Below are positions 6,967 to 21,838 of a stretch of 25,747 bases of DNA, piece after piece (position 1 is the stretch's first letter; each line of letters opens with the position of its first letter). The notes beneath the pieces are model-generated. The model saw nothing but the letters and a program-made list of their open reading frames with translations, did no database searches and had not been told where the DNA came from. Position numbers and translations under genes: made by a program. This DNA is from a virus: positions 1-25,747 of the IMG/VR virus record IMGVR_UViG_3300042556_002288; one strand, given 5' to 3'.

Positions 6967-7235
6967 TTGCAATTTGCTCCTGTTACTGGCGTGACTGGTG
7001 TTTTTTGTGACATAGGTTGATTACCATCTGGACCAATTCGTGGATCATTTTGGCCTTTGAAAATATGTTCCGGACAAGTTCTTGTTACATCACAGTATGG
7101 TAACTTGCACATTGGTTTATCCCAATTATTTGGATCTTGGCATGGATAACGGAATCGGTCACCACTAAAATACGCCAATGTTAAAGGTAATAACAAAATG
7201 AACAATATCCATTTCATTAACTTTTTATCGTTCAT
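6963..7235 (-). CDS. Cys-rich protein with N-terminal membrane anchor or signal
   Basis: A 90-residue protein with one hydrophobic segment at about 7-23, either an anchor or an uncleaved signal. An exported domain follows that is rich in Cys, Pro and Asp: C32, C43, C48, C54 and C89. The cysteines suggest disulfide bonding in the periplasm. No family recognised. AGGAG lies about eight bases before the ATG at 7235, which overlaps the endolysin stop by one base (TAATG), so it is co-translated with the endolysin. The downstream neighbour overlaps as ATGA. A role at lysis is suggested by context only. Confidence 0.7.
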   Translation of the reverse strand: MNDKKLMKWILFILLLPLTLAYFSGDRFRYPCQDPNNWDKPMCKLPYCDVTRTCPEHIFKGQNDPRIGPDGNQPMSQKTPVTPVTGANCK

Positions 7236-7861
7236 TAATGAACTCCTAATACATGAAGTGCGTGTTCATAATGTTTAACTCTATCTTCAAGACCAATGGT
7301 GCCACCATTGATACGCTTTGTTAATGTGAGAATGTCACCTTTGTCGGCCCATTGATTGAGATTGTTTGTTTCCCAAAACCAACAAGCAGATTGAGCTGCA
7401 CCTTCAAATGTTTGTAAATATTCAGATGCCTCTTCAACGGTAATACCAAGTGAGGCAGCGAACCAAGAATAGTTTTCTTTGCCTGTCAATTGAATGAGTC
7501 CACGGCCACAATATCTAAATCCGTCACCAGATTCTTCTGGTCCATTTCCCATACGATTAGCATAGATACGATTTGCGATAGCTTCTTGTTTATTTGGTTT
7601 GTTAGCATATTCTTCTGCTAGTGCATCTGTAGGAAAATACTTACCAAATAATTTACGTAATGTTGCAGCACGATAATTTAGATTTTCTTTGAGAAACATA
7701 AAATTACCCGATTCGTGAGCGCATTGTGCTATGAAAGCTGCAATGCGTTGAGGAGTATTAATCTCATACTCAGGCAAAAGTTGTGCTAGAGCATTATGCC
7801 ATTGGTCAATGTATGGATTCTTTGGCAGTAATTGTTTGAGTTGGTCTTTTGTTAGTTCCAT
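7235..7861 (-). CDS. GH19 (chitinase-like) endolysin
   Basis: I choose the ATG at 7861 (208 residues) over a TTG seven codons upstream, which would intrude into the preceding gene. The protein matches the glycoside hydrolase 19 fold used by many phage endolysins to cleave peptidoglycan. E50 in CAHESGNF and E59 in LKENLNY are the likely catalytic pair, followed by the family signature GRGLIQLTGKENY (about 119-131) and a C-terminal TKRINGG element. There is no signal peptide, so it needs a holin to reach the wall. Several membrane proteins downstream and the spanin pair upstream in the same operon complete a lysis module. Confidence 0.92.
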   Translation of the reverse strand: MELTKDQLKQLLPKNPYIDQWHNALAQLLPEYEINTPQRIAAFIAQCAHESGNFMFLKENLNYRAATLRKLFGKYFPTDALAEEYANKPNKQEAIANRIYANRMGNGPEESGDGFRYCGRGLIQLTGKENYSWFAASLGITVEEASEYLQTFEGAAQSACWFWETNNLNQWADKGDILTLTKRINGGTIGLEDRVKHYEHALHVLGVH

Positions 7862-7862
7862 T

Positions 7863-8069
7863 TTATACCGCCATTTTTGCAACAGAGATTGCTGCGTTTA
7901 TCATTGTGTTCAATTGTTCTTTAAGTGCTAAGCCTTCAGCATCATCATTGATGCCTTCCATAATGTTAATGCCTTCTATTAATTGAATGTATTCTTCTTT
8001 GCTAATCTGACCTTCGGCCCACATTTTATTATATTCTATAATCAAAGCATTTAATTGTTCTGGATTCAT
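7863..8069 (-). CDS. Small helical hypothetical protein
   Basis: A 68-residue, mostly helical, acidic protein of unknown function. The segment EGQISKEEYIQLIEGI (about 19-34) resembles the short helix-turn-helix SHOCT-type oligomerisation motif found at protein ends, but the match is weak. No membrane segment. The ATG at 8069 overlaps the stop of the lipoprotein gene as ATGA, and its TAA is two bases from the endolysin start, so it is tightly coupled to both. It may regulate or accompany the endolysin, but that is guesswork from position. Confidence 0.65.
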   Translation of the reverse strand: MNPEQLNALIIEYNKMWAEGQISKEEYIQLIEGINIMEGINDDAEGLALKEQLNTMINAAISVAKMAV

Positions 8070-8470
8070 CTCGGTTTACTCCCTAAAACATGTTGAATGG
8101 TATCTGCTGATTTAATAACTTGTTGCAACTTTGCTTTACAAAATACTGGTGAAATCTTTTCGGCTTTATTAAAATAATCTCTTGTGTCTTTTGTTAATGT
8201 CAATAATTTTGTCGACATATTATCTGTATCTTTATTTCTTGGTATATGACTTGTGAAGTTTTTAAACTCCAATGCTTTGATATACAAATCATTTACCTGT
8301 GTAACAACCAACAATTGGTTACCACAATTTTCTTCTGCAATCTGTGCCTTCGTTTTAATATCATTAACGATGAAGTATTCGTTAGTGTCATACTTGGCCA
8401 TAAAATAGGCATCAAATAATGTGCAACCACTTAATGACAAAACGAACAATAAAGGTAATAATCTTTTCAT
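8066..8470 (-). CDS. Predicted lipoprotein
   Basis: A 134-residue protein with a type II signal peptide: basic MKR, hydrophobic core and lipobox LSGC with the acylated cysteine at 16. The mature part is mixed and helical with two further cysteines. Asp at +4 from the acylated Cys does not give the classic inner-membrane Asp+2 signal, so outer-membrane sorting is possible. Function is unknown. The start at 8470 overlaps the stop of the thermonuclease gene as TAATG. Phage lipoproteins of this kind sometimes block superinfection at the envelope; the sequence neither supports nor excludes that here. Confidence 0.75.
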   Translation of the reverse strand: MKRLLPLLFVLSLSGCTLFDAYFMAKYDTNEYFIVNDIKTKAQIAEENCGNQLLVVTQVNDLYIKALEFKNFTSHIPRNKDTDNMSTKLLTLTKDTRDYFNKAEKISPVFCKAKLQQVIKSADTIQHVLGSKPR

Positions 8471-8904
8471 TAGTTACACCAACTTTGTTTTGCTTCACCA
8501 AAATATTCACGGGCAAAGCCATTTTTAATTAACATGGTGCGTAGTGATTGACCATTTAGTATGATATCACCCAAGACACGGCCACCAAATTTATCCCAGC
8601 CATACAACACAACTTGACGCTGAGTGGAAGCGGATACAGCTTTCTTTGTGAATTCTGTAGCGGCTTGTCCTCTGGCATCTTCTGATGGGCATTGGGCTCT
8701 GAATCCTTTTTCTGGAGTATCAACACCGAATATTCTAACGGCAAGTTCGGGTTTAAGTGGTGCCGGTAAAAAGGGAGCCGCTATGACCACAGTATCGCCA
8801 TCGTTTACACGGACAATCTGAGCATCATAGGTTACACCTTGCGGAGTTTTCTGTGCAAATGCCACCAAAGGTAACATTAATAAAACGGTTAATAATTTTT
8901 TCAT
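8470..8904 (-). CDS. Periplasmic thermonuclease (staphylococcal nuclease-like)
   Basis: A 144-residue protein with a cleavable signal peptide (likely cut after AFA, residue 17) and a complete SNase domain, which hydrolyses DNA and RNA with calcium. Catalytic positions are visible: D35/D37 in VNDGDTV, R57 in VRIFG, D62 and E65 in VDTPE, and R109 in DKFGGRVLG. Two further cysteines (C72 and C143) could form a disulfide after export. Length is typical of a single-domain SNase. The gene is embedded in the lysis operon, overlapping both the spanin and lipoprotein genes. Export to the periplasm is clear from the sequence; whether it degrades incoming DNA, released DNA or something else is open. Confidence 0.9.
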   Translation of the reverse strand: MKKLLTVLLMLPLVAFAQKTPQGVTYDAQIVRVNDGDTVVIAAPFLPAPLKPELAVRIFGVDTPEKGFRAQCPSEDARGQAATEFTKKAVSASTQRQVVLYGWDKFGGRVLGDIILNGQSLRTMLIKNGFAREYFGEAKQSWCN

Positions 8905-9534: not shown

Positions 9535-9888
9535 TTATGCCTTTATTGGTTTTCTCCGAATAGACATAAGAACCGGAGTTTTTTTCTTTTTCAAATTAAC
9601 ACCTGGTTCACCACCAGGTCCACCTGTGCCAGCGATTGCACCACGACCAACAACATTAGTTGGCCCAGCAACAGCAACACCATCTTCATCCAGATCAACA
9701 CCTTCGCCAAGTTGACCTTGATGTAAAGTATTGAGATGATGCATTACTTCTTTTGTTTTGTCCGATATTTGATTAAAGAGTTCGATTCTATCTTCATCAG
9801 TCATTGGACTTTTCAGTTTATGTCTTAGATGGTTCAAATCTGCTTGAACTCTTACAAAATCTTTAAATGTTAATATATCGTAATTCAT
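9535..9888 (-). CDS. Hypothetical protein with helical N-half and Gly-rich tail
   Basis: A 117-residue protein I do not recognise. Residues 1-60 look helical (His-containing, MTDEDRIELFNQISDKTKE). An acidic turn at about 65-69 (DLDED) is followed by a glycine/proline-rich low-complexity segment (about 72-96) and a basic end with KKKK and RRK. No membrane segment. The start at 9888 overlaps the upstream gene as ATGA. It sits between conserved unknown genes and the spanins, so it could be the last member of the virion-associated block or the first of the lysis block. Confidence 0.65.
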   Translation of the reverse strand: MNYDILTFKDFVRVQADLNHLRHKLKSPMTDEDRIELFNQISDKTKEVMHHLNTLHQGQLGEGVDLDEDGVAVAGPTNVVGRGAIAGTGGPGGEPGVNLKKKKTPVLMSIRRKPIKA

Positions 9889-10271
9889 ATTTGCCTTAAT
9901 ATCTGTGCAATATGTAAATCAACCGGAATGTCAGCTGATATAATATTTTTTCCGTTAACACTTCTAACAATGTCAGGCATGATACCCAAATATATTAGAA
10001 ACGTTTTCAAAATATCATAATCTCGTTTATCAATCTTATAGAATAATATTCTAGATGTGTCTTCTGGACCAAAAACATTATTCAATAAAATAATGTGATT
10101 TAATATCAACCGCTCTTTGAGGGTTTTTGTGATCTTATATCTACGAAATAACCTTTTTAAATATTTCGTTCTTTTGATATCACTTTCGAATTCAGACATA
10201 ATACAATTTGGTGTCATATAACACTTCATCGCATACATCATAAAATTTTCATCATTCAAATCATCAAACAT
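9885..10271 (-). CDS. Conserved hypothetical protein of T4-like aquatic phages
   Basis: A 128-residue, helix-rich, basic protein. The sequence MFDDLNDENFMMYAMKCY at the start and KYLKRLFRRYKITKTLKERL in the middle match a family I recall from many marine T4-like phages, where it is annotated as hypothetical; I cannot verify that here. The sequence shows no catalytic motif, signal or membrane segment. It follows the gene at 10278-10760 by 6 bases and overlaps the next as ATGA. Persistent conservation in T4-like phages would suggest a replication, transcription or morphogenesis role, but none is established from sequence. Confidence 0.75.
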   Translation of the reverse strand: MFDDLNDENFMMYAMKCYMTPNCIMSEFESDIKRTKYLKRLFRRYKITKTLKERLILNHIILLNNVFGPEDTSRILFYKIDKRDYDILKTFLIYLGIMPDIVRSVNGKNIISADIPVDLHIAQILRQI

Positions 10272-10277
10272 ATTGTG

Positions 10278-10760
10278 TTATTCTTGTGGTGGTTGCTTTT
10301 CGCCTTCTGGATCTAAATGTTCGGTGTCATCAGATACTAATTCGTCCAAGCCTGCATCATCAGTAACCACAGCATAACATTCATAATGGCCATCTTCGAC
10401 CATACCATAACTGAAATAAAAATAGTAATCTACTTCATTGTCTGGATTTGTTGTTACGCCATCCGTATCAACACCTTGTTTCGTTCCAAACTGGTTTATT
10501 GCAACAACTTCTTCTCCATCTAGAATATCATCAAAAATAATTCTAGGTAAAGCAATACCATATAATGCCAATAATTTTGAAGCTCTATTCCATGCAATAT
10601 AAGGATTTAGAAAATTAGGATCTAAAGCCTGATACAAATTATCGTTTATTTCATTACGTGTTTCTTCTTCAGAGAAATCAATTTTCTCTTTAGAAATGGA
10701 GATGACCGGCATATCCGGTCCATCTCCACACTCACTAACATACCTTCTAAAAGAAAACAT
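10278..10760 (-). CDS. Conserved acidic protein with capsid-targeting-like N-terminus
   Basis: A 160-residue acidic protein of unknown function. The first ten residues MFSFRRYVSE match the pattern M-x-S-F-x-x-Y-V-x-E seen at three other starts in this window and in the T4 internal-protein capsid targeting sequence; Glu10 would be the cleavage position. The N-terminal half is helical (EETRNEINDNLYQALDPNF, about 33-51), the middle is beta-rich, and the end is acidic (DDTEHLDPEGEKQPPQE). No signal or membrane segment. The start at 10760 overlaps the stop of the Ig-like gene by one base. Packaging into the head is an inference, weaker here because position 8 is Val and not Ile or Leu. Confidence 0.75.
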   Translation of the reverse strand: MFSFRRYVSECGDGPDMPVISISKEKIDFSEEETRNEINDNLYQALDPNFLNPYIAWNRASKLLALYGIALPRIIFDDILDGEEVVAINQFGTKQGVDTDGVTTNPDNEVDYYFYFSYGMVEDGHYECYAVVTDDAGLDELVSDDTEHLDPEGEKQPPQE

Positions 10761-11440
10761 TATGCCGTTACAGTCAACTTAACTGGTGTAGATGTTGCAG
10801 AAGCACCTGTTGTTGTTGCAGAAACAGTTACTCTATAGTAATTGTTGTTTGCATCTGTAAATGTTGGTGTAACTGTCAATGTTGCGCCTGTACCACCAGA
10901 GTATGTTGTATTTGCTGGTGTGCCGTTCGAAACGTTTACATAAGATCCACCTAGTGTTGCAGAACGCTGCCATTGATATGTTAATGGAGCTGCAGTGTTT
11001 CCTGCTGTGATCGAAGCCACAACTGTAAACGATGCTGTATTTCCACCACCATATACAACGGAGTTGGCAGATGGATTTGTACCAATCGTAACGATAGCAT
11101 CTTGGTATACACCATCTTCACCATCTTCATTGAAGTTGGAAATAGCGACCAAAACCTCTTCTTGCACACGATTTGCACGACCACCTGAACCGGTTGTTCT
11201 TAGAACCCAGCCAGAATGTGTTTTGCCATTAACTGAAGCTTCGTTAGTATCAACACCAAAAAGACCAATGGTTTCACCAACGGTGTAAACATCAGCTGTG
11301 GTGTTTGCATACAAACGAGCTACGTTATCTGCTGTTGGAGCAGAGTAGTTAGCTTTTACGTTTGTGGCATTCACAATTGTTGAATTGACAGCCCAATATG
11401 GTGCATTGGCTGCGTTATCGTATTTTCCCCATGAGGACAT
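10760..11440 (-). CDS. Virion-like protein with C-terminal Ig-like domain
   Basis: A 226-residue Thr/Asn/Ala-rich protein. Residues about 1-112 form an N-terminal domain (SWGKYDNAANAPYWAVN) of a kind I recall from structural proteins of T4-like phages. Residues about 115-226 look like a bacterial Ig-like domain: beta-strand alternation with a YQWQRS core (155-160) and a YYRVTV strand (201-206), typical of surface-exposed virion domains such as Hoc-like decorations. There is no signal. A strong AAGGAG precedes the ATG at 11440, and a late-promoter-like GATAAATA lies 32 bases upstream, both consistent with high late expression. Likely displayed on head or tail; the exact location cannot be told. 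Confidence 0.8.
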   Translation of the reverse strand: MSSWGKYDNAANAPYWAVNSTIVNATNVKANYSAPTADNVARLYANTTADVYTVGETIGLFGVDTNEASVNGKTHSGWVLRTTGSGGRANRVQEEVLVAISNFNEDGEDGVYQDAIVTIGTNPSANSVVYGGGNTASFTVVASITAGNTAAPLTYQWQRSATLGGSYVNVSNGTPANTTYSGGTGATLTVTPTFTDANNNYYRVTVSATTTGASATSTPVKLTVTA

Positions 11441-11471
11441 CTTCTTCTCCTTATTATTGAAGGTTGTTAGT

Positions 11472-11479
11472 TATTTATC
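11472..11479 (-). promoter_or_regulatory. Putative T4-type late promoter
   Basis: The minus strand reads GATAAATA, one base off the T4 late consensus TATAAATA, in the 39-base gap before the Ig-like virion gene. Distance to the ATG is 32 bases and a strong ribosome-binding site lies between. Recognition would need a gp55-type sigma factor, which is not in this window. Confidence 0.5.
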
Positions 11480-13066
11480 TTATTTTCTATCTTGTTTACT
11501 ACCATCCTGTGGGCCAGCATCTGGTTGGTTAGGACGCTTTTTCATTGATGGATCAATTTCAACGGTATCTCTATCTTGGCCAGTTAAAGTCTTACCACCA
11601 GTCATTATGGCCAAGGCTTCTGGTTTGTTTTCTCCATAACTTTCTTTTTTATCAGTTGTGGCCATCTTTGGTTTCTTACCATAACCTTTGGTTGATTTAT
11701 CGTCTTTTTCCCAATCATACATATCTTCTTTCATATTCTTGGACTTGTATAAAGACTTAATCATACGAGCAGATTTCGACATTTCACGTTTCATTGTTGA
11801 AGTATCATTTGTATTATTGGCACCATCAAATGGCATTTGAGTTGCGGATTGAGTATCGTGAAATACATCTTCACTGGTAGGTTTCATGCCTTGTTTGCGT
11901 TGCATATAACCCATTAGACCTTTAACTCGTTTCTTAGCAATCGCATCGGATTTTGCGTGTAAATCAGCAAATCCTTTTGACATATGTTTACCAGGTTCAG
12001 CTGCATCACGATTGGCTTGAGCATTTTTAAGACTTGCTGTAGATTTATCTTTGTATGAAGCTAGTGTAGATTTTGAAATTTCATCAATCTGTTCAACTTC
12101 TTCTTTCATCTTCATTTCATCTTTACGTTTACCAAAAGTAGAATGAACAAGAGTATCTAATTTCTTGTGAAATTGTGTTTCTTTAGTTTTACTTACTCCA
12201 GTGTCAGCAGCTTCTTTATTCAGATGTTTTTCTAAACGGTCAATAGCACCTTTCATATCTTCTTTGCCTTGCTTGGCATCTGCTTGGCGTTTGGCTTCAA
12301 TATCAGCGTGTTTCTTTTCACGTTCAGCAGATGCTTTACGAAACTTTTGTAATGATGTTGGTTTTGTTGATTCATTTTGTTCTACTTGTTCTCTATTCAA
12401 CAAAGCACGATGCTCTTGATCAATCGGAATAGAATGTTTTTGAATCAAAGCTCTTAACATCTCTCGGCTTCTAGTTTTTGTTGATGTTGTTCCGGCAGTA
12501 GATACTTTTTTAATGGCACGATGAACAGCTGGTGTTGCAGATGGTTCATCAGAATGAATAGCCATCAAATTCTTTAAATGTTTTTTAACTGTATCGTGAT
12601 CAGCTTGAGTTGGTTCATGAGAACGGCTGCTACGAATTCCCATGCCAGATACTTCATCAATCTGTTCTTCTTTTTGTAATCTTTCATCCGGTTTATGGTC
12701 ACGCAACCATTTAGCAAATTCACCAGATTTTGAATAACTAACTTTTTTATCAGTTGTAACAAATTTAGGATCGATACCACGAGATGAGAGAAAACGATTC
12801 AACCACTTATCTTCATCCAATTGAACTTCTTCAACGGTATGATCTTGTTTCCATTTTAAGAAAGCACTTGACTTCGCATGAGATATTTTTGTATCTTTAG
12901 AAACAAATTTAGGATTGATTCCACGAGATGACAAAAACTGGTCGAGTGTACCACCAGCTTCATAAATTCCTGCCTTAGCAGACCATGGATCAGAAGGATC
13001 CACACCAAACCGAGGTTTAGCTGGTGTAGGATTTTTCTTGACGATATCTCTTAAATTCTTAGACAT
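11480..13066 (-). CDS. Large charged repeat protein, possible internal head protein
   Basis: A 528-residue, Lys/Glu-rich, mostly disordered or helical protein of unknown function. Two copies of a 35-residue unit (residues 42-76 and 90-124, key pattern FLSSRGI[ND]PKFV) open the protein. A motif EE..[IL]DE recurs: QLDE at 82-85, QIDE at 135-138 and QIDE at 326-329. The last is followed by SKSTLASYKDKS, a segment type I recall from many aquatic T4-like phage proteins. The [IL]-D-E triplets fit the T4 prohead protease preference ([IL]-x-E). No membrane segment, signal or catalytic motif. AGGAA precedes the ATG at 13066, eight bases after the previous stop. A head-core or packaged role is inferred. 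Confidence 0.75.
   Translation of the reverse strand: MSKNLRDIVKKNPTPAKPRFGVDPSDPWSAKAGIYEAGGTLDQFLSSRGINPKFVSKDTKISHAKSSAFLKWKQDHTVEEVQLDEDKWLNRFLSSRGIDPKFVTTDKKVSYSKSGEFAKWLRDHKPDERLQKEEQIDEVSGMGIRSSRSHEPTQADHDTVKKHLKNLMAIHSDEPSATPAVHRAIKKVSTAGTTSTKTRSREMLRALIQKHSIPIDQEHRALLNREQVEQNESTKPTSLQKFRKASAEREKKHADIEAKRQADAKQGKEDMKGAIDRLEKHLNKEAADTGVSKTKETQFHKKLDTLVHSTFGKRKDEMKMKEEVEQIDEISKSTLASYKDKSTASLKNAQANRDAAEPGKHMSKGFADLHAKSDAIAKKRVKGLMGYMQRKQGMKPTSEDVFHDTQSATQMPFDGANNTNDTSTMKREMSKSARMIKSLYKSKNMKEDMYDWEKDDKSTKGYGKKPKMATTDKKESYGENKPEALAIMTGGKTLTGQDRDTVEIDPSMKKRPNQPDAGPQDGSKQDRK
12695..12799 (-). repeat. 35-residue coding repeat, copy 2
   Basis: Encodes residues 90-124, beginning NRFLSSRGIDPKFV and ending AKWLRDH. 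The spacer between copies carries EEVQLDE. DNA of the two copies has diverged more than the protein, so the duplication looks old and maintained by selection; this is by eye only. Confidence 0.85.
12839..12943 (-). repeat. 35-residue coding repeat, copy 1
   Basis: Encodes residues 42-76 of the 528-residue protein, beginning DQFLSSRGINPKFV and ending LKWKQDH. It matches copy 2 at 12695-12799 in most positions, with conservative changes. The unit is Ser-, Lys- and aromatic-containing and may fold as a small helical module. Confidence 0.85.
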
Positions 13067-13074
13067 AGCTATTC

Positions 13075-14250
13075 CTATTTTTTAATCTTTGTTCTGTCTT
13101 GGACTTTTTTAAATGCTGAACGAGCCAAATCTTTTGCACGACTCATTGGTGTATGAACAGCACCAGATTTGTCTTTGACATTCTTTGGTATTTCTTTCCA
13201 ACCAGATGTGCCTGCAATTGTCGCTTCATCCATTTCAACTTCTTCTTTACGTTGTTTAGCATAGTAAGCAGCAAGAGCCATCTCTTTACGTTTTGCTTTG
13301 GATTTACCAGCAAACTTTGGATTATCAGAGTGAACAAAGTCACTAATCCAATCACCAGCTTTTGCATCTTTACCAAGAACTTCATTAATCATTTCATCGA
13401 GTTGATCTTCGGTATATTCTTCTACCTCTTCTGGTACACAGTTAGGAACTTTACGGCCACCTTTCATTTTCATACCAACAGCAGTATAACCTTTCCAGCA
13501 AGCATCTTTTAATTCACCTGTTGGTTTTTTAACTTCATCAACTTGTTTCGTTTCTTCATTTGTTTCTTTTTTACCTGTGATAAAACGACCAAGGTTTTTT
13601 AGGTCACTCTTAAAAGAACCTGGTTTGTCTTTAAGATAACTTTTGTCAGCAACGTCTTGGTTTTTCTCTGGAGACTTTTCAATAGCTTCAGGCATAACAA
13701 CATCTTTTTTCTCTTTCATCGACTTCCATTTTTCTTCTAAACGAGCCGAAAAGGACTCTTTTACTTTCTTTTTGCCACGGAGAATGGCAAAATCATGAGC
13801 ATCAATTTTGTTGTTCTTGTTTGCATCAATTTTATGTTGAGCACCTTTTAATTCTTCATCGTAACGACCACGATTTTTCATGGCATCTTCTTTGTCCGTT
13901 TTCATTAGGTCTTTTGTTTTTGGACCTTTGAGTGTATCAACAACGTGTTTCTCTGGTTTGGAACCACCATATGCTTTGGTAGATTTGTGAATCAGACCAG
14001 TTTTGGTTTTAGTTACTTCACCAGAAGCAGCTTCTTCGATGGCTTCACCATAAGAAATATCTTCACCTTGAACTTTAACAGGATATGTTTTGCCTTTAAA
14101 CGAAAACATTTTTTCGCCTTTGGTGTGAGCAGCATAAGCAGCTTTACGTAAACCAGTTTCGTCTAAGTCAGCCTCAGACATTTTCTTTTCAGAAATTACC
14201 GAGTTTACGGCATCGACCATTGATTGAGTTACTTTAACTTTTGTGAACAT
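13075..14250 (-). CDS. Large charged multi-module protein with EF-hand-like loop
   Basis: A 391-residue Lys/Glu-rich protein of unknown function. Visible modules: an N-terminal helix; FSFKGKTYPVKV (49-60); an EF-hand-like calcium loop D142-x-N144-x-N146-x-K148-I-D150-x-x-D153; a Cys-containing module LKDACWKGYTAVGMKMKGG (247-265) ending in NCVPEE; and a module LGKDAKAGDWISDFVHSDNP (292-311). The last three resemble segments I recall from proteins of aquatic T4-like phages. The acidic [LVM]DE motif recurs (DLDE, QVDE, QLDE, EMDE). No signal or membrane helix. GGAGAATAAA precedes the ATG at 14250. It lies between similar charged proteins, so the three may act in the same structure; packaging in the head is inferred. 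Confidence 0.75.
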   Translation of the reverse strand: MFTKVKVTQSMVDAVNSVISEKKMSEADLDETGLRKAAYAAHTKGEKMFSFKGKTYPVKVQGEDISYGEAIEEAASGEVTKTKTGLIHKSTKAYGGSKPEKHVVDTLKGPKTKDLMKTDKEDAMKNRGRYDEELKGAQHKIDANKNNKIDAHDFAILRGKKKVKESFSARLEEKWKSMKEKKDVVMPEAIEKSPEKNQDVADKSYLKDKPGSFKSDLKNLGRFITGKKETNEETKQVDEVKKPTGELKDACWKGYTAVGMKMKGGRKVPNCVPEEVEEYTEDQLDEMINEVLGKDAKAGDWISDFVHSDNPKFAGKSKAKRKEMALAAYYAKQRKEEVEMDEATIAGTSGWKEIPKNVKDKSGAVHTPMSRAKDLARSAFKKVQDRTKIKK

Positions 14251-14265
14251 TTTATTCTCCGTTTA

Positions 14266-14586
14266 TTAGCAGTTCCACTTGCGTAATGCTTTGTTAATTC
14301 TAGAATCTGGATCTCTTGCTGTCTTAGCGGATGTCAATCGTTTCTTCATTCCACCCATACGAGCACAGAATGATTTTCTACGATTAGCCGCTTTTGATCC
14401 TGCTTTCAGTTTTGATGGTTTAGTAGTAACAGCCATCGATAACTTAGAGCCTGGATTTTCTCTACGATAAGAAGCGATACCTTTACGATTTAAACCACCT
14501 TCTGGATCTTTACCGGCAGAACGTTGCCATGCTGGCGACTTTTCATCAAGATATTCCTCAGATATGAATTGTTTAAATTTTAGCAT
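14266..14586 (-). CDS. Small basic protein, DUF6321-like, with capsid-targeting-like N-terminus
   Basis: A 106-residue, strongly basic protein. The body (PEGGLNRKGIASYRRENPGS, then RRKSFCARMGGMKKRLTSAK and DPDSRINKALRKWNC) matches a conserved phage protein family I recall as DUF6321, function unknown; the number should be checked. The first ten residues MLKFKQFISE fit the T4 internal-protein targeting pattern, with I8-S9-E10 a good prohead protease site, followed by EEYLDE, another possible site. A small basic mature protein released after cleavage would resemble T4 internal proteins, which coat or accompany packaged DNA. The start at 14586 overlaps the upstream gene by 14 bases, so translation is probably coupled. 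Confidence 0.85.
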   Translation of the reverse strand: MLKFKQFISEEYLDEKSPAWQRSAGKDPEGGLNRKGIASYRRENPGSKLSMAVTTKPSKLKAGSKAANRRKSFCARMGGMKKRLTSAKTARDPDSRINKALRKWNC

Positions 14587-16366
14587 TTTTCTTCTTCTTT
14601 ATAGTTACACCAGATAAAGCAAATTTATCTGCTGGGGTCATTAAAGGTTCTTTGTTACTTGCGCCAGACATCGACCCAGCAAGTCCCATATCATTGGCAC
14701 CTGGATCGTCTATGGCTTCTACAAATTCTTTAAACTTTTTAAATTCTTCACGGTAGGTTACATCGCCCATTCCTGACATAGGGTATACTGTTCCCTGTTG
14801 GCGAGTATCGAATTCTGGTCCTACACCTTGGGATCGAATAGCACCAGAGGCGCTATTGACCCATCGTTTCTTTTTATTTATTTGCTCTTTGTCTTTTTGG
14901 AAGTTTGGCTCTTTGGCTTGGGGCTGGACTTCGACTTTGGGCTGGCCTTCTTCGTAGGTGCGGAAGGTGTAACCTGAGTTGCTGGCGATGTCTCCGTCAC
15001 GGACGTCATCGATTTTTCCGAGCTTTCGCTGGAATTGGATGAAGGGGGAGTTGTTGTCTTGCAAGGGTCTACGGTTTGCGTTGGCTTTACTTTTAAGAAA
15101 TCGATTAGGGCTTTTAACATTTTTTTGTTCCTTGTATAATGAATTAATATTTAATTTAGAGTTTCGAATCAACCAATCTTCGGCGGTTTCGTTAAGAACT
15201 TTGGTATCCAAGAAATCATTAGTTTTTTCATAGATTTCATGTATATCTTGCTCTTTACTATCTATATCTCCTGTATTATCAAAAGATACAAATTTCTCAA
15301 AGGTCTCTTTAAAATATTTAGTATTTTTCTGAGATTTCAACCATTTTTCTTGTCGTATCGATTCAACCATCATCCTGGACAATAAAGAGTTTCTTTCTCT
15401 ACTGGTCTCATTGGTGGTATTCACAAATACCATTATTGTTTCATATCCTAATTCTTCTAATTCTTCTTTGATATATGATATTCTGGTTGTATCATCTGCA
15501 GGACCATTAATGATTAAAGGACCACGATTTCGAATTGCTTCTTGCCTGTAATCACTTGTTTTTTCAGACAATTTTTGTTTATCAGCCAAATACTCTTGAG
15601 CCTGTATGAAATTTAGTTCAACAATCTTGGCTTCAGAAATGGCTTCACGAATGATGATATCTTTACCAGAACCAGGTCCGCCGGTAACAAAAATAGCTTT
15701 GAACATACCACGATCTGTAGTTTCATGTAGTCCCATACCTTTACGAGTATCGTGCATTAACTCTTTTGCATGAGTATCTGAAACGTGAGATGGCACACCT
15801 TTCCTAAACTCACCAAAGTTCTTGTTCTTTGCATGTTCTCTCATCTTAGTAGCGGACATACCTTCTGTGCCTTCAGCGTCTGGATCACGATGTCCAGCAG
15901 AATGTACCGTAATCTTTTTAAAGTGGTATTTTCCATGGCCAGCCTCAACACCATTATATTTGTGTAATAAATGGTGCATCTCTTTAACACGATCAGAACC
16001 AACGACCACATGAAGATGTGTTACGCCACTCTTATGTGCTTCTGCTGCATGGTGTAGAATTGTTGGTTTCTCTTTTGAAGCCGCTACGATATTAGTACCG
16101 CCAGATTCTTTTGCTTCTGTTATTGGACCAGAAACATACCGTTTTAGATGTTTAACCTTTTGTTGAGCCGTTAAAGGATTCTTTTTTGTATCTTGTGTAT
16201 GTGAAACAATGATAGAATGAGTTGCATTATTCTTCTTTGCAACTTCTTTTACTTTATCAATTAATTTTAAATGGCCTGCAGTAGGAGGACTCATTCGGCC
16301 AAAGGTAATAACATGGTGTTTTTCACCTTGTTGTTCTTCTTTGATTATGTCTAAAAATGATTTCAT
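14573..16366 (-). CDS. HxGH nucleotidyltransferase fused to P-loop kinase-like domain, capsid-targeting-like N-terminus
   Basis: I take the ATG at 16366 (597 residues); a TTG four codons upstream is less likely because the ATG gives the N-terminus MKSFLDIIKE, which fits the internal-protein targeting pattern. Residues about 18-200 form a nucleotidyltransferase domain: GRMSPPTAGH (23-32, the (H/T)xGH motif) and SATKMR (171-176, the ISSTxxR motif), as in NMN adenylyltransferases and related enzymes. Residues about 220-390 hold a P-loop domain with Walker A GGPGSGKD (229-236), where Asp replaces the usual Ser or Thr. The C-terminal 200 residues are polar and linker-like. The order resembles NadR (NMNAT then ribosylnicotinamide kinase), so NAD-precursor metabolism is plausible, but substrate is not shown. 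Confidence 0.85.
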   Translation of the reverse strand: MKSFLDIIKEEQQGEKHHVITFGRMSPPTAGHLKLIDKVKEVAKKNNATHSIIVSHTQDTKKNPLTAQQKVKHLKRYVSGPITEAKESGGTNIVAASKEKPTILHHAAEAHKSGVTHLHVVVGSDRVKEMHHLLHKYNGVEAGHGKYHFKKITVHSAGHRDPDAEGTEGMSATKMREHAKNKNFGEFRKGVPSHVSDTHAKELMHDTRKGMGLHETTDRGMFKAIFVTGGPGSGKDIIIREAISEAKIVELNFIQAQEYLADKQKLSEKTSDYRQEAIRNRGPLIINGPADDTTRISYIKEELEELGYETIMVFVNTTNETSRERNSLLSRMMVESIRQEKWLKSQKNTKYFKETFEKFVSFDNTGDIDSKEQDIHEIYEKTNDFLDTKVLNETAEDWLIRNSKLNINSLYKEQKNVKSPNRFLKSKANANRRPLQDNNSPFIQFQRKLGKIDDVRDGDIASNSGYTFRTYEEGQPKVEVQPQAKEPNFQKDKEQINKKKRWVNSASGAIRSQGVGPEFDTRQQGTVYPMSGMGDVTYREEFKKFKEFVEAIDDPGANDMGLAGSMSGASNKEPLMTPADKFALSGVTIKKKKNAKI

Positions 16367-16367
16367 C

Positions 16368-17513
16368 TTACTTTGCAAACCTAGGATTGTTTAAAATTGA
16401 GTTTGAAACTTTTACAGGAACTAGTTTAGATACCGGTCTCATCTTTCCTGCTTTGTCTTTTTGTTGCAATACAATACCTTCACCTTGGGACTTTTTGCCA
16501 TCTATACTTGTTTCCATATCTGGATGTGTTACGCCTTTTAATAAATGTTCTGTAGCTTGACCCAAGTGATGTCTAATATCTAAAGACCTTTGAAAGTGTT
16601 TAGAATTATCATCAACATGTTTTTTCAACTTATCATACTCTGCTTGTTTTCTTACTTGACCAACAGGAGTCTTTAATTTACCAACTGATTTCTTTGCTTC
16701 ATCATCTAAATGTTTTTTATAACCTTCCACGGAAGCAGTTTGACCTTTTCTTGTTGTTCTATTTAAGTATGTAGTAAAGTGTCCACCTTTCTTTACATTA
16801 ATGTGTTCTGGTGTCAAATGTTCTGTGCTATGATTCTTTAGTAACTCTTTTGCTTTTTCTAAATGTTTCTCTGTGGCTTGCCTATCTTTTTCTGAATAAG
16901 TATCTGGATCAGGTTTGTATTCGTGTTCAGGAACAAAAACATTATCACTATGTTTAAGTGCCTTTTTACTAACACCATGAGCCACACCTTTTGTAATCTC
17001 AGTATGAACTGCTAAACCAATTGGTGCTTTTGTTTTGGCTTTGTATGTGATTCTATTTGGTGTTGTGGTAGTATGACCATCAGATTTTTCTCCAGGAGAA
17101 TCTGGTGTATGCAGTAAATCTCCTTGAACATGGTGACCTTTATTGACGAATTCGTGGCCATGTTTTAATAATCTTTTGAGTGAAGCAGCATAGTCTGGTT
17201 TATGACCAAAATGCTGGTCAACTTCTTTAGGTGTTCTTGCTATGACACCTCTGGCAATTCTGTGTTTATCTGAAACACCAACACCTTCTTTATCGTGTAT
17301 GACGTGAACAGAGGCACCACCGTCAGTTTTTAATGATGCACCAACAGAGCTTTCTTGTCCCATTCTTTTTTTGTGAAATTGGTGTAGTAGGTCTATTGCA
17401 GTTTGAGTATGTCTTGGATCTTCGTGTGGCAGGTCTTTCGTATGAGTAAGATGACCCAACATCTCATCATCGATGGATGTGGCTTCCCTCAAGAACGTTA
17501 TAAATGACTGCAT
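16368..17513 (-). CDS. Ligase/nucleotidyltransferase-like protein with capsid-targeting-like N-terminus
   Basis: I choose the ATG at 17513 (381 residues) because AGAAGGAAA precedes it. A GTG eight codons upstream lacks this support. The N-terminus MQSFITFLREA fits the T4 targeting pattern, with L8-R9-E10 then Ala exactly as in T4. The body shows elements that line up with the covalent nucleotidyltransferase (DNA/RNA ligase) superfamily: KTDGGAS with candidate lysine K62 (motif I), VQGDLLH at about 129-135 (motif III position), IGLAVHTEI at 165-173, GEGIVLQQK at 344-352 (motif IV) and SKLVPVKV at 362-369 (motif V). The protein is unusually His- and Lys-rich. It resembles a phage family I recall as DUF6267. 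It is the first gene after a consensus late promoter. Ligase activity is not proven. Confidence 0.8.
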   Translation of the reverse strand: MQSFITFLREATSIDDEMLGHLTHTKDLPHEDPRHTQTAIDLLHQFHKKRMGQESSVGASLKTDGGASVHVIHDKEGVGVSDKHRIARGVIARTPKEVDQHFGHKPDYAASLKRLLKHGHEFVNKGHHVQGDLLHTPDSPGEKSDGHTTTTPNRITYKAKTKAPIGLAVHTEITKGVAHGVSKKALKHSDNVFVPEHEYKPDPDTYSEKDRQATEKHLEKAKELLKNHSTEHLTPEHINVKKGGHFTTYLNRTTRKGQTASVEGYKKHLDDEAKKSVGKLKTPVGQVRKQAEYDKLKKHVDDNSKHFQRSLDIRHHLGQATEHLLKGVTHPDMETSIDGKKSQGEGIVLQQKDKAGKMRPVSKLVPVKVSNSILNNPRFAK

Positions 17514-17649: not shown

Positions 17650-18345
17650 TTACTGCCAGGAAGTACCTTCAAAATCACCCCAATAGGTTCTTAACTCTCC
17701 TTGACCTTTTAGAACATTGAATGGTAGGGTGTGTATCAAACCTCGACTGGAATAATAGTATATCAGTTTTTGTGGTGGTTTGTCAAGCGCCGAAGCGAGA
17801 ATGGCAGAACCAGTTTCGGCACCTATGAATATCTCTGCTTCCATAATGTGGTAAACATTGGTCATAAAATCTGTGCTATATTTCCAATTATCATAGGTTT
17901 GTGGAAGTTCATTTTGAACACAGATTATTTTTTCATAGTCTGGTAGATTATATTCAGTTAGTATCTGGTCAAGTAATTGGCTTGGCCAATTCCTGTATGT
18001 ATTATACGGAGCATCAAACAAAGGAAACACAACTATCTTTTTCTGTGTAGTCTTTGTATTTTTAATTTTGGCAATATCACCAGATATATCTCTAAAGTCC
18101 CAAAGATTTACTTTTCTCCATGGCAAAGTTTGTTGACCGGCTTCAGAAGAAAAGTAGTCCGTATTTTCACAAAGAAATTTAAATAAGTCTTGACAATACT
18201 TGGCAGAATTGATCGTGCCTTCCATCATATGAAACTTTGAATCAGGATTTTTTCTACGAATATATTCTAAAGCATTCAGCAGAGCAATCATATCACCATT
18301 TCTCAATGGTCCACCAAAAGTGTTTGGCGCAATATTAATAACCAT
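17650..18345 (-). CDS. GT9-like (heptosyltransferase-like) glycosyltransferase, short
   Basis: A 231-residue protein with features of the GT-B family 9 enzymes that build LPS cores. KKIVVFPLFDAPYNTYRNWP lies near the middle, where GT9 proteins have a strand followed by a WP segment. AEIFIGAETGSAILASALDKP lies near the C-terminus, where GT9 proteins have the sugar-nucleotide-binding D/ETGxxHLAxALxxP motif. It is shorter than usual GT9 enzymes (about 320-350). The start overlaps the upstream gene by 11 bases, so translation is coupled. It is the last gene of the glycan island, followed by the 136-base gap with the late promoter. Acceptor and sugar unknown. Confidence 0.75.
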   Translation of the reverse strand: MVINIAPNTFGGPLRNGDMIALLNALEYIRRKNPDSKFHMMEGTINSAKYCQDLFKFLCENTDYFSSEAGQQTLPWRKVNLWDFRDISGDIAKIKNTKTTQKKIVVFPLFDAPYNTYRNWPSQLLDQILTEYNLPDYEKIICVQNELPQTYDNWKYSTDFMTNVYHIMEAEIFIGAETGSAILASALDKPPQKLIYYYSSRGLIHTLPFNVLKGQGELRTYWGDFEGTSWQ

Positions 18346-19090
18346 TTAATATTTCTTCCAATTTATTTTGATGTAATAATTTCATTTTTCTGTTTAGATA
18401 ATAGTGCTTCTCAAAAATTGTATTGATGTTCTTACCATTATCCCAAGAAATGTCATCACCATTTCTAAACTGTATATCCCAATCTTCTGCTTTCCAAATT
18501 ACATAACCATCTTTATTCAATAAGTCCGCTAATACAGAAACTCCTGAAAGGCTTGCAATAAAAGGATGTTTACTATTTTTAATGATGTAGGCATTGGTCA
18601 ACAAATCATTACTGTAATCAATATAATGACATTTCTGTAAACCAGATAATGTGTTTGACCTTCTACGGTCATCAACGGTACCTTCAGACCATCGGTCACC
18701 AATATATGGTGTGTCTTGGTGGATTTCAATATTCATTTCAGGAATTTGAATTTCAAAACTATCATCAACTTCAAAATTTAATTTATAATTATCTTTCATG
18801 AAGTTTTCATAACGACAAGTTTCTATTGGTCGGTTTGTATCATTCTTATCTTCACGAATTGGCCAACTACTCATGTGAGTAATATTACCATAAACAAAAA
18901 CTTCATTTGCAAAATTGACATCAGAGAAAAGACCTTGATGTGCTAAGAATTGTTTGATACCCTTAAACTTGGCCATTTCTGGTCGTATAATCAAATCAAT
19001 ATTTCCATAAGACTTCTGTATACCAGACAATACTGGCATACCATTTAGAAAATCACCTAAGTTAGATGTTCCTGATAAGAATATTTTCAT
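18335..19090 (-). CDS. Glycosyltransferase-like protein, GT9-type N-terminus
   Basis: A 251-residue protein. The N-terminus MKIFLSGTSNLGDFLNGMPVL looks like the GT9/GT-B nucleotide fold with its GDxLxxxP segment (as in ADP-heptose:LPS heptosyltransferases, where GDxLLTTPVL occurs). The C-terminal half holds PFIASLSGVSVLADLLNKDGY (about 176-196), comparable to the GxSGxxxLAxLL region of this fold, but without the usual D or E of the DTG motif. It overlaps both neighbours (11 bases and ATGA). It may be a diverged, substrate-recognition or partly inactive relative of the gene at 17650-18345, with which it might form a functional pair. Confidence 0.65.
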   Translation of the reverse strand: MKIFLSGTSNLGDFLNGMPVLSGIQKSYGNIDLIIRPEMAKFKGIKQFLAHQGLFSDVNFANEVFVYGNITHMSSWPIREDKNDTNRPIETCRYENFMKDNYKLNFEVDDSFEIQIPEMNIEIHQDTPYIGDRWSEGTVDDRRRSNTLSGLQKCHYIDYSNDLLTNAYIIKNSKHPFIASLSGVSVLADLLNKDGYVIWKAEDWDIQFRNGDDISWDNGKNINTIFEKHYYLNRKMKLLHQNKLEEILNGY

Positions 19091-19875
19091 TCACTAAATT
19101 CCTTAAAAGCAATAAACCAATCTGAATTTGAAACTGGATGCAATTCAAATAATTCTGGTTTCATTAAGTAAGACATTAATAATAATGTTTGGTCGTCATC
19201 AATTAAATTATTTTTTAGAAGTTCATGAACACTATGATGAACCATAGCTTCCAATTTTGGCCACATCTCTCGGCCTGCAACAATACACGGTCCAGTTATA
19301 TGAACATCATTATTTGCAATAACGTCTTGGATGTATGTTCCTTCTTTCCATTCTTTGATATTAAAGAAGTGTATTTTATTCTTATCAAAAGAATACTTCC
19401 ACTTCTTAACACCATTTAATGTTTCTTCACTTCTACAATAACCAAAGTCTAACCAAGCAATCAAATCAGTTTTGATGAGGTCTAAAGACCTATTAACAAA
19501 AGATGATTTTAAAGCATTGACGAGAACGTAGTCAGCATTCCAGTATTCTGGATTTTTTACTTGCATGGGATTTATTTTACTCTGATACTCAGGACTTTTC
19601 TGAACATCTGTAATTTTTTGTCTTAACTCAATAAAGCTTTTTTGGAAATCGACTGTCAATATTTGTGTTGGTCGATCTTGTCTTAGAAACTCAATCTCTT
19701 TAACCATATCTTTAGAGGTATACACCACCATATCGTTTTCTAGTTTAGCTAGATGACTGAATCTTTCCAAATAAGTTTGAGTTGTTCTTTGTAGATAATG
19801 TGGCAATCCTTTGTCTGGTGTCCAATCACCACGACCAATATCAAAGAAGGCGGTTACAATTGTAATATCATTCAT
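19087..19875 (-). CDS. HtrL/YibB (WlaTC) family putative glycosyltransferase
   Basis: A 262-residue protein whose start DITIVTAFFDIGRGDWTPDK matches the HtrL/YibB family, found in LPS and capsule gene clusters and thought to be glycosyltransferases. Further family-like features: NADYVLVNALKSSFVN (about 113-128), WLDFGYCRS (about 141-149, possible metal or nucleotide site in place of DxD), and AGREMWP (about 200-206), followed by DDDQTLLL (about 226-233). Length is typical. It overlaps the neighbouring genes as ATGA on both sides. The protein is soluble, with no signal or membrane helix. Family call fairly firm; reaction not established. Confidence 0.8.
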   Translation of the reverse strand: MNDITIVTAFFDIGRGDWTPDKGLPHYLQRTTQTYLERFSHLAKLENDMVVYTSKDMVKEIEFLRQDRPTQILTVDFQKSFIELRQKITDVQKSPEYQSKINPMQVKNPEYWNADYVLVNALKSSFVNRSLDLIKTDLIAWLDFGYCRSEETLNGVKKWKYSFDKNKIHFFNIKEWKEGTYIQDVIANNDVHITGPCIVAGREMWPKLEAMVHHSVHELLKNNLIDDDQTLLLMSYLMKPELFELHPVSNSDWFIAFKEFSE

Positions 19876-20495
19876 TTTTTAGCAATCATAGTTAATATAT
19901 TGGGAAGATTGGAAACTGATTTACGAATTTCATCTTCATGATTACAAATATGTATAGGTGTGTATCCTGCTTTATGTGCCAATTTAATTAGACCATGAAC
20001 ATCAAAGTGGTGAAAGTGTTCATTTTCTTTTCTGTGTTTCCACGTTCTAAACCATTCAGCACCCATGTTTTCGTGCATCCATGGTAATGATATCATAATA
20101 TATTTGGTTTGTAAAGAGGCCAACAGTTCGTGTATGTTTGGTTGTGGTATATGTTCAATCGAATCAAAGAATGTTACCACATCAAAACTTTGTTTGGTAA
20201 CATCAGGTACAAATTCAACACCTTGTGGTAGTGGAAAATTTGAAATGTCATGGCCATAGCATTTAGAAACTTTTTGTTGGTGGCAATATTCTAAGAATTT
20301 GCCGTCACCATAACCAAAGTCACAGATAGAATCGAAACTAGTATATTTGTCTAATAAATCAAATCTTAACTTAGACATGGCAAGATTCATCTTAGTATAA
20401 TATTCCATATAGCGAGTATCATACTTCATAATTTCACCAGTTTGATTTTTTTGAAACCAGTGGCCTGGTTCAATCATCTCATAATTTTCAATCAT
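19872..20495 (-). CDS. SAM-dependent methyltransferase, paralogue A
   Basis: A 207-residue class I methyltransferase. SAM-binding motif I is ICDFGYGDGKFLEYC (about 57-71). The acidic residue following beta-2 is D79 in GHDISN. The post-I/motif II region is FDVVTFFDSIEHI (about 104-116). The C-terminal half carries EHFHHFDVHGLIKLA, typical of methyltransferases in O-antigen and sugar clusters. It is clearly paralogous to the gene at 20488-21123 along the whole length, and overlaps it by 8 bases. Substrate is probably a sugar or glycan given the neighbours, but protein or other small-molecule targets are not excluded. Confidence 0.85.
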   Translation of the reverse strand: MIENYEMIEPGHWFQKNQTGEIMKYDTRYMEYYTKMNLAMSKLRFDLLDKYTSFDSICDFGYGDGKFLEYCHQQKVSKCYGHDISNFPLPQGVEFVPDVTKQSFDVVTFFDSIEHIPQPNIHELLASLQTKYIMISLPWMHENMGAEWFRTWKHRKENEHFHHFDVHGLIKLAHKAGYTPIHICNHEDEIRKSVSNLPNILTMIAKK

Positions 20496-21123
20496 TCTTT
20501 TTCGCCACTATTGTCAATATGTTGGGTAAATCACTAAATGGTGTTCTTATTTTATCTTCATCATTACAAACATGAATTATTTTACAACCAGCATCAATCA
20601 GTAATTTTGTCAAACCGTTACAATCAAAATGGTGGAAATGTTCATTTTCTCTACGGTGTTTCCAATTCATGAACCATTCCTTACCACATGATTCGTGATA
20701 CCAAGGAACAGAGATAACAAAGTATTTTGCTTTTTTTGCTTTGAGTATTGGTGTCAAATCTTCAACATCCAAATGTTCCAAAGAATCAAAGAATGTCATT
20801 ACATCAACCTCAACCTCATCAGGATTGTCCACTTTTGTGATATAAGAAGGTAATTGATAATTTGATATATCATAACCATAAGCCTTAGTGCCTTCTATGT
20901 AACAATATTTCAAAAAACTTCCGTTGCCATAACCAAAATCACAGATCGATTTGACACGACCAATATTTGATTCGATTATAGAATATCTTAATTGTGACAT
21001 TTTATCCGTTGTTGGATAAAGATCATATCTCGTTTTAGAATATGTTTCACTATAGTCAGGACCAGGACCAGTTCTAATTTGAAATAGATGTCCAGGCGAT
21101 ACTACCTTATAATTTTCATACAT
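20488..21123 (-). CDS. SAM-dependent methyltransferase, paralogue B
   Basis: A 211-residue class I methyltransferase, paralogue of the gene at 19872-20495. Motif I is ICDFGYGNGSFLKYC and the post-I region is VDVMTFFDSLEHL. The shared blocks W[HK]HR[RK]ENEHFHHFD and LPNILT near the end are nearly identical between the two, while the segment after the first SAM motif diverges, suggesting different acceptors or positions. The start at 21123 overlaps the upstream glycosyltransferase by 8 bases. Tandem duplication with retained motifs implies both are active. Confidence 0.85.
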   Translation of the reverse strand: MYENYKVVSPGHLFQIRTGPGPDYSETYSKTRYDLYPTTDKMSQLRYSIIESNIGRVKSICDFGYGNGSFLKYCYIEGTKAYGYDISNYQLPSYITKVDNPDEVEVDVMTFFDSLEHLDVEDLTPILKAKKAKYFVISVPWYHESCGKEWFMNWKHRRENEHFHHFDCNGLTKLLIDAGCKIIHVCNDEDKIRTPFSDLPNILTIVAKKND

Positions 21124-21838
21124 AATAATTTTTATAGTTGTGAACTATTTCCATTTCAGAAGGCACATTGTTAATATCATAATTTTTATCAGTTGGCCAA
21201 ATATTAAACAAATAAGGATTGTTTGTATATTTTTTGCCACATAACAAATAGTAGTAAGTCATATAACAGTCCATCCAACCCATCGTAGGATAAAAGTTAT
21301 CTTGTATGTAGTCAGCATTTTTATCAATGAATTCTACAACTTTGAAGTAATTGTCTATGAATGTTTTTACTTTAAAAATTGAACCGCCGCCAGCACCATA
21401 ACCTTGAACATCAGGATAAACTCCAGAAAATTCATGTATCATCTTTGTAAATTCTGGATGAAATAGATTTGCGTGTGTTGTTGGATGTCCAGCAACTTCC
21501 CAATCATCTTCAACGGTTACTGGCTTAACCAATACCACATCATCTTCAACCATCATCAGATGTGTTGTATCCGTTTTAATGCAAGCGATATAAAACCTAC
21601 TCAACCATTCTAGTATCTTTTCTTTTCTGTATCCATAAGGTTGAACAGGATAACTCAGATTCTTTTGTGAATGGTAGTATTCGATATTATACTCTTTACA
21701 TAATGTATAATAATCTGGACCACCATCACAAGCAATCATAAAGAAACTATTCGGATGAAACTTACGAATCGATTGAACAGAATGTTCTGTAGCTTTTGGT
21801 TGTGTTGAAACACAGTTAAAGAAACCGATTGTGGCCAT
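21116..21838 (-). CDS. Putative GT-A glycosyltransferase
   Basis: A 240-residue soluble protein with the order of elements of a GT-A enzyme. There is an N-terminal nucleotide-binding region with FFMIACDGGPD (about 32-42), an acidic metal-binding motif LMMVEDDVVLVKP (about 94-106, EDD serving as DxD), GGGSIFKV (about 150-157) for acceptor or donor binding, and a late GWMDCY (about 187-192). It resembles the eukaryotic- and viral-type small glycosyltransferases often found in phage glycan clusters. It overlaps the methyltransferase and epimerase genes by 8 bases and 1 base (TAATG). Specificity unknown. Confidence 0.7.
   Translation of the reverse strand: MATIGFFNCVSTQPKATEHSVQSIRKFHPNSFFMIACDGGPDYYTLCKEYNIEYYHSQKNLSYPVQPYGYRKEKILEWLSRFYIACIKTDTTHLMMVEDDVVLVKPVTVEDDWEVAGHPTTHANLFHPEFTKMIHEFSGVYPDVQGYGAGGGSIFKVKTFIDNYFKVVEFIDKNADYIQDNFYPTMGWMDCYMTYYYLLCGKKYTNNPYLFNIWPTDKNYDINNVPSEMEIVHNYKNYYV

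Follow-up and report, generated by a model that had tools for sequence, protein, structure and literature searches.

Genes and N-terminal decamers at the locus

The stretch analyzed here, referred to as the window, is a 25.7-kb IMG/VR fragment (IMGVR_UViG_3300042556_002288) of a T4-like lake phage. Genes for ribonucleotide reductase and primase, a cluster of genes whose products share an N-terminal decamer (the tag), and a sugar/methyltransferase cassette are all located on its minus strand. An earlier note on this DNA had proposed that four proteins of the cluster begin with capsid targeting sequences of the T4 type and are packaged as enzyme cargo. The four decamers, read from the sequence, were all present at the claimed positions:

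10731..10760, minus strand: MFSFRRYVSE, N-terminus of an acidic 160-amino-acid (aa) protein; its last triplet, VSE, departs from [IL]xE
14557..14586, minus strand: MLKFKQFISE, N-terminus of a small basic DUF6321 protein
16337..16366, minus strand: MKSFLDIIKE, N-terminus of a 597-aa protein; predicted cut after IKE; M1, F4, and E10 invariant in 33 orthologs
17484..17513, minus strand: MQSFITFLRE, N-terminus of a DUF6267 protein; predicted cut after LRE; no change at F4 or E10 among 34 aligned orthologs

Two of the four chosen starts are internal to the longest open reading frame (ORF), at codons 9 and 5, and are supported because relatives conserve the sequence from those methionines onward. 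In phage T4, the capsid targeting sequence is an N-terminal tag of about 10 residues, with residues 4 and 7 acting in targeting and residues 8 and 10 in processing (Mullaney and Black, via PMC9026906). The earlier note ascribed the T4 decamer MKTYQEFIAE to IPI and IPIII. This is correct for IPIII, and also for IPII, but not for IPI, which begins MKTFKEFTST and mismatches at position 10. All four decamers align without gaps with MKTYQEFIAE at the aromatic residue 4, the hydrophobic residues 7 and 8, and Glu10, and three of them obey the [IL]-x-E rule, as claimed (LRE, IKE, and ISE fit; VSE fails). A signal peptide or secretion tag was ruled out by the charged residues at positions 5, 6, and 9, Glu10, and the lack of a hydrophobic core.

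The strict pattern M-x2-[FY]-x2-[FYILVMW]-[ILVMF]-x-E was searched for in all six frames, since overlapping genes escape simple gene calling. Of the 49 candidate ATG starts of the window, 4 matched, compared with none of its 168 internal methionines (p = 0.0024); among the internal methionines of seven related genomes, the pattern occurred at 7 of 6,126 (0.11%). The probability of obtaining at least 4 matches among 49 starts by chance is 3.5e-7, or 6e-6 with an upper-bound background rate, values that are optimistic because the pattern was composed after viewing the four decamers; the ortholog and proteome tests reported below are free of that weakness. The four-way match and the invariance of F4 and E10 in orthologs confirm the pattern, indicating at the level of sequence that the decamers belong to the T4-type capsid targeting sequences.

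Specificity of the pattern and head assembly genes in relatives

Among long relatives, the nearest is a 136-kb record (G001), which contains the same cluster, with a copy of the 597-aa gene that is 89% identical. A scan of this entire genome, as the earlier note had suggested, revealed that the same four genes, in one cluster, are the sole full-length carriers; the only extra match was a doubtful 54-aa ORF. In G002 and G003, all carriers were within the same cluster, bar one 56-aa ORF, and G004 contained three more small candidates outside the cluster. No replication or metabolic gene of G001 to G003 displayed the pattern, the opposite of a motif shared with proteins of cytoplasmic role.

The search for a gp21-type protease in the same genome, also suggested by the note, was positive in G001 (Peptidase_S77; E = 1.2e-33), and this family is present in 7 of 10 long relatives, G001 included. 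The lack of a gp21-type protease match in a PF03420 search of the 25.7-kb window carries no information, since a fragment of this length does not reach the head genes. G001 to G004 encode both gp22 and gp23, and their gp23 proteins contain an L-[NS]-E triplet (LNE in G001) in the propeptide region, placed by analogy, where T4 gp23 is cut.

Conservation and portability of the tag

Orthologs were surveyed at 123 loci obtained from two scans of viral contigs. The pattern begins nearly every ortholog of the DUF6267, nucleotidyltransferase-kinase (597-aa), and DUF6321 genes. DUF6267 orthologs with only ~30% identity retain F4 and E10 without exception; the aligned set was drawn from tagged orthologs, so that this invariance shows the spread of the tag rather than its frequency. 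The consensus of 193 distinct decamers, MK[ST]FK[QE]F[LI]xE, is close to the T4 IPII/IPIII sequence, which served as the positive control for the pattern. The columns left unconstrained by the search also match MKTYQEFIAE (K2 in 112/193, S/T3 in 149/193, and Q/E6 in 84/193 decamers).

Comparison of the carriers without residues 1 to 12 gives 25 similarity groups, several of them short or doubtful, leaving about 20 families without mutual similarity. The presence of the tag on about 20 unrelated families indicates that it is portable and not inherited with one domain. Tagged carriers of relatives include an S-adenosylmethionine (SAM) lyase, and the tag is found in the named isolates S-SSM5, S-RIM2, C48C1, and DLP_6. 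In another lake phage (L102:3043-3837), a protein similar to ADP-ribosyltransferase exoenzymes (PF03496; E = 8.8e-8), the activity class of the packaged Alt protein of T4, is tagged with MITFRNFMTE and encoded beside DUF6267. The slot between the DUF6267 and nucleotidyltransferase genes is occupied by differing tagged proteins of unknown families at L016:2709, L064:2582, and L057:9378, and is likely a cargo hotspot.

In phage C48C1, the annotated start of the cytidyltransferase (L177:3001-4407) is past the tag, the open frame beginning with IKNFSQYLLE; start annotation thus hides tags. The strict pattern had no match in HTVC008M and matched one gene in Melnitz, and the homologs in these phages bear degenerate or shorter variants (MKKFSEIIE, MLSFTGYSNLSE), indicating that the strict pattern undercounts.

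Tagged proteins in published virion proteomes

Mass spectrometry (MS) of CsCl virions has been published for three Kyanoviridae isolates, S-CREM2 (PMC10665884), S-SCSM1 (PMC9602691), and S-SZBM1 (PMC9146016). For S-SCSM1, detections were taken from the "virion protein" notes in GenBank, which mark 48 records versus the 45 stated in PMC9602691. The decamers of lake phages alone served to train a tag profile, which was then run on every called gene of these isolates, allowing ATG, GTG, and TTG starts and a nine-residue variant.

The top five profile scores among the 222 genes of S-CREM2 were all those of MS-detected virion proteins (P = 6e-4), namely, the cytidylyltransferase (MKNFSSFLTE), the S-AdoMet (SAM) hydrolase (MKDFDSFLEE), gp136 (MQTFSMFFSE), gp13 (MKDLHSFLTE), and an APH/ChoK-like kinase (VKRFDAFLTE). 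The score falls from 6.4 to 2.0 after the fifth gene, and most untagged enzymes of S-CREM2 were not detected in virions. The best-scoring gene of S-SCSM1 encodes the virion-detected NMNAT (MKSFLQFLKE), and the virion-detected cytidylyltransferase of S-SZBM1 begins with MRFRQFIIE. The check by virion proteomics that the earlier note proposed could be made on these three related isolates, and their tagged cytidylyltransferases, SAM hydrolase, and kinase are among the proteins detected. For proteins of at least 150 aa in the three phages, five profile matches were detected and one was not (p = 0.015, one gene missed by the gene caller being added). A rank test of the tag score over the full set of virion proteins gave no significant result, which is unsurprising given that most of them are tail parts. 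The tag argues against contamination as the source of the virion-detected enzymes. Since tagged enzymes are located in the virions of related phages, the two enzymes of the window probably travel into the next host.

The S-CREM2 kinase, gp14 (L131:10579-12846), has a GTG start. A fourth enzyme detected in S-CREM2 virions, the Cas9-like nuclease gp12 (L131:7704-10313), contains LRFASFMAE near its N-terminus, which suggests that its start is annotated too far upstream.

Carrier proteins

The earlier note's descriptions of the carriers agree with the domain and structure analyses, the second nucleotidyltransferase-type carrier being the DUF6267 protein, here ligase-like:

10278..10760, minus strand: acidic 160-aa protein, isoelectric point (pI) 4.1; no match in the family search
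14266..14586, minus strand: basic DUF6321 protein, 106 aa, pI 10.6 (PF19846; E = 4e-19); second [ILV]xE site, YLDE/KSPAWQ (14542-14550; the slash marks the boundary), at the start of the DUF6321 domain
14573..16366, minus strand: 597-aa protein with an HxGH nucleotidyltransferase (NMNAT/cytidylyltransferase-like; PF01467, E = 1.5e-5), a P-loop kinase domain (residues ~220-390), and a disordered tail (PHROG 3041; E = 2e-60)
16368..17513, minus strand: DUF6267 protein, 381 aa, pI 9.5 (PF19782; E = 1.3e-26), with a predicted covalent-nucleotidyltransferase (polynucleotide-ligase-like) fold

In the DUF6267 protein, the covalent-nucleotidyltransferase motifs are invariant among 34 sequences: K61, D63, and G64 (KxDG), QGD129-131, E344 and G345, and K362, corresponding to motifs I, III, IV, and V of the polynucleotide ligase superfamily. 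The AlphaFold (AF2) model has a predicted local distance difference test score (pLDDT) of 85.9, and nearly all of its best matches among solved structures are RNA or DNA ligases (Foldseek E = 2e-3). The VIA-align comparison (Z = 8.1; root mean square deviation of 3.9 over 180 residues) gave a score that unrelated folds can just about reach; this borderline value is credible because the invariant motifs agree. The model and the motifs indicate that this carrier is probably ligase-like.

The 597-aa protein conserves the NMNAT/cytidylyltransferase motifs, with PPTxGHxKL as the nucleotide-binding motif of the HxGH type and GMSxTKMR as the C-terminal S-x-x-[KR]-M motif, and scores above the cut-off for PF01467 and TIGR00125. 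Its kinase domain is closest in fold to polynucleotide kinase and guanylate kinase, which tie at Z = 13.4 to 13.5, in a fold search limited by the low overall confidence of the AF2 model (pLDDT of 59). Sequence searches of the PDB with this protein and the DUF6267 protein returned nothing useful. The two enzymes may act in healing and sealing nucleic acid ends on entry or in rebuilding nicotinamide adenine dinucleotide (NAD). Relatives of the DUF6321 protein were found in 516 phage records. Among the relatives of the 160-aa protein, the tag varies (MLAFRRYVSE, MKQFREFIRE, and MLGFKQFVVE) and the pattern is kept.

Internal boundaries in modular proteins

Domains located directly after the tag in some proteins recur inside longer proteins of other phages, as illustrated by the pair MKSFKQYLGE/DLRQWF and internal TELNE/DLRKWF. 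Among 176 such junctions, the shared domain is immediately preceded by Glu in 110 and by a complete [ILV]xE triplet in 74; at other offsets, the triplet count averages 5.4, and the second-highest value, 35 at +6, reflects a second site in some families. The 176 junctions derive from 13 domain families and are not independent; most of these families, though not all, show the effect clearly. Three proteins of the window contain such internal sites:

9535..9888, minus strand: 117-aa protein; junction comparison equates internal VDLDE/DGVAVAGPTN (9685-9693) with the post-tag start of relatives, MKTFKKFIDE/DGMAGG...AGPTN
11480..13066, minus strand: 528-aa modular protein with QLDE, QIDE, and QIDE sites between repeated modules, read from its sequence
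13075..14250, minus strand: 391-aa modular protein without a tag of its own; junction comparison equates internal ETKQVDE/VKKPTGELKDAC (QVDE site at 13534-13542) with the post-tag start of relatives, MKKFKEYIKE/VKKPTGELKDAC

The [ILV]DE triplet is enriched in the modular proteins of the window, with 8 in 1142 residues versus 3 in 3891 residues of the other window proteins (p = 6e-4; shuffle mean, 0.9), and the looser [ILV]xE is not enriched in the same comparison (p = 0.43). Both the end of the tag and the internal sites resemble cut sites of a protease and behave as equivalent boundaries, which would be expected if the same protease cleaved them. In that case, the 391- and 528-aa proteins would be multipart head proteins that are cut into modules.

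Other genes flank the cargo cluster. Two neighbors lie on the minus strand:

9885..10271, minus strand: DUF7207 protein (family match), a conserved neighbor without the tag
10760..11440, minus strand: 226-aa member of a head protein family (PHROG 613), neighbor within the cluster

Judged from sequence alone, positions 17650-24382 (minus strand), upstream of the cluster in transcription order, contain a run of apparent sugar-nucleotide, methyltransferase, and glycosyltransferase-like genes. On the same basis, 7235-7882 appears to encode a GH19-like lysin and 8470-8904 a secreted thermonuclease-like protein.

Proposed mechanism and alternative explanations

We consider it probable that these N-termini are capsid targeting sequences of the IPII/IPIII type and that the proteins are loaded into the prohead, cut, packaged, and delivered with the DNA. 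This reading builds on the identity and conservation of the tag, its restriction to one cluster, the protease, scaffold, and capsid genes of the nearest relative, and the agreement between tag and virion detection in isolates. During head assembly, the tag would dock the carriers (the ligase-like DUF6267 enzyme, the nucleotidyltransferase-kinase, the small basic protein, and the acidic protein) to the prohead core, with gp22 as the scaffold. The gp21-type prohead protease would then cut after Glu10, freeing the mature proteins within the head; this enzyme seemingly also processes the neighboring modular proteins, at their internal [ILV]xE sites. The genome would be packaged around the freed proteins, which, by analogy with T4, would exit with the DNA into the host at the next infection.

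Several observations weigh against this reading. Virion MS did not detect the small tagged proteins S-SCSM1 gp30 and S-SZBM1 gp191 and gp192, and homologs in HTVC008M and P-HM2 are devoid of the strict tag. Long proteins are more often detected by MS, so that detection is biased by length; among S-CREM2 proteins of at least 200 aa, all three strict ATG matches were detected, which is not significant (P = 0.18; hand count). The authors of PMC10665884 considered contamination of virion preparations possible. The published tables are silent on residues 1 to 10, and cleavage after Glu10 in these phages is proposed by analogy. The undetected small proteins are encoded near terminase genes (L133:47311-48125 and L134:44215-44535), S-SCSM1 gp30 being a homolog of gp191.

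The tag could load the prohead with components of the core or head structure that are consumed or retained instead of being delivered. The T4 core proteins gp22, gp67, and gp68 are cut by the same protease, the modular 391- and 528-aa proteins resemble multi-cut core proteins, and gp22 of the nearest relative itself begins with MAKFNLSEAAKEIL. However, the catalytic motifs of the DUF6267 protein and the nucleotidyltransferase-kinase are intact and invariant, and the other tagged proteins (SAM lyase, kinase, and ADP-ribosyltransferase-like) are implausible as scaffolds, making retention as structural components unlikely. We give far less credit to the notion that the motif reflects a widespread type of amphipathic helix at the N-terminus for docking to a membrane, a chaperone, or a complex, with virion detections resulting from contamination by abundant late proteins. 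A helix is present at residues ~3-12 in both structure models, at low confidence, and contamination was raised by the authors of the published proteomes themselves. Against this, all five top tag scores of S-CREM2 belong to virion-detected proteins while most untagged enzymes escaped detection, the protease triplet falls exactly at the tag end in the junction test, and the decamer agrees with that of T4. Finally, resemblance of the four N-termini by chance, suggested by a short, degenerate motif picked after the four were seen, is already refuted by ortholog conservation across ~120 loci and the lack of other full-length carriers in the nearest relative; we give it practically no weight.

Relation to known systems and significance

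In T4, the targeting sequence, the protease that cuts it, and enzymes carried in the head, Alt among them, were already known (PMC9026906, PMC5694885). The proposed targeting of cargo resembles that of T4 IPII and IPIII, whose tag is cut by gp21, in the ungapped match at aromatic residue 4, hydrophobic residues 7 and 8, and Glu10, in the K2, S/T3, and Q/E6 preferences, in the occurrence of gp21, gp22, and gp23 in the nearest relative, and in the basic character of three carriers. The cargo is apparently unrelated to T4 IPI to IPIII, its family matches being DUF6267, CTP_transf_like, DUF6321, or none, and it includes large two-domain enzymes; the tag itself is found on about 20 families, and longer proteins contain the mature domains as well, bounded by [ILV]xE junctions. 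T4 Alt is likewise a head-carried enzyme cut near its N-terminus, and the ADP-ribosyltransferase-like protein of a relative bears the tag, whereas the enzymes of the window are a nucleotidyltransferase-kinase and a ligase-like protein. The NMNAT/cytidylyltransferase and kinase-like proteins of cyanophage virions (PMC10665884, PMC9602691, PMC9146016) have tagged N-termini and include the same nucleotidyltransferase family, often clustered beside primase and ribonucleotide reductase genes, but the authors drew no link to the targeting sequence and left contamination possible. The ejection proteins of SPN3US and phiKZ also lose an N-terminal propeptide to a gp21-related protease, although these propeptides are mostly of more than 100 residues versus 10 here (PMC5694885). 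A literature search, with most subscription journals outside its scope, found 15 papers with "capsid targeting sequence," among which a T4 review was the only one also to contain "cyanophage." What is new is that the tag extends to enzymes of environmental T4-like phages, that it agrees with virion proteomes, and that tag ends and internal junctions behave alike.

The capsid targeting sequence has so far been a textbook curiosity of T4, known from a few small coliphage proteins. Readable as a signal across T4-like phages of lakes and seas, it allows packaged proteins to be listed from the genome alone, and it offers an answer to the question raised in the cyanophage papers as to whether virion nucleotidyltransferases and kinases are real cargo or contamination. 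The cut N-termini are predicted to the residue and are immediately testable on existing data. Natural tags for packaging enzymes into phage heads are also supplied.

We tentatively extend this reading, as a conjecture somewhat short of an even chance, to a general two-part loading code in T4-like environmental phages. The N-terminal decamer would admit any protein, and internal [ILV]xE junctions would allow a single tag to carry in several interchangeable domains linked in series, with the prohead protease making all the cuts, thereby delivering a changing set of enzymes before phage gene expression. If so, this set would comprise a ligase-like protein, a polynucleotide-kinase-like nucleotidyltransferase, a SAM lyase, a small-molecule kinase, and an ADP-ribosyltransferase, and the delivered enzymes could, for example, heal DNA or RNA ends, restore NAD, or block restriction.

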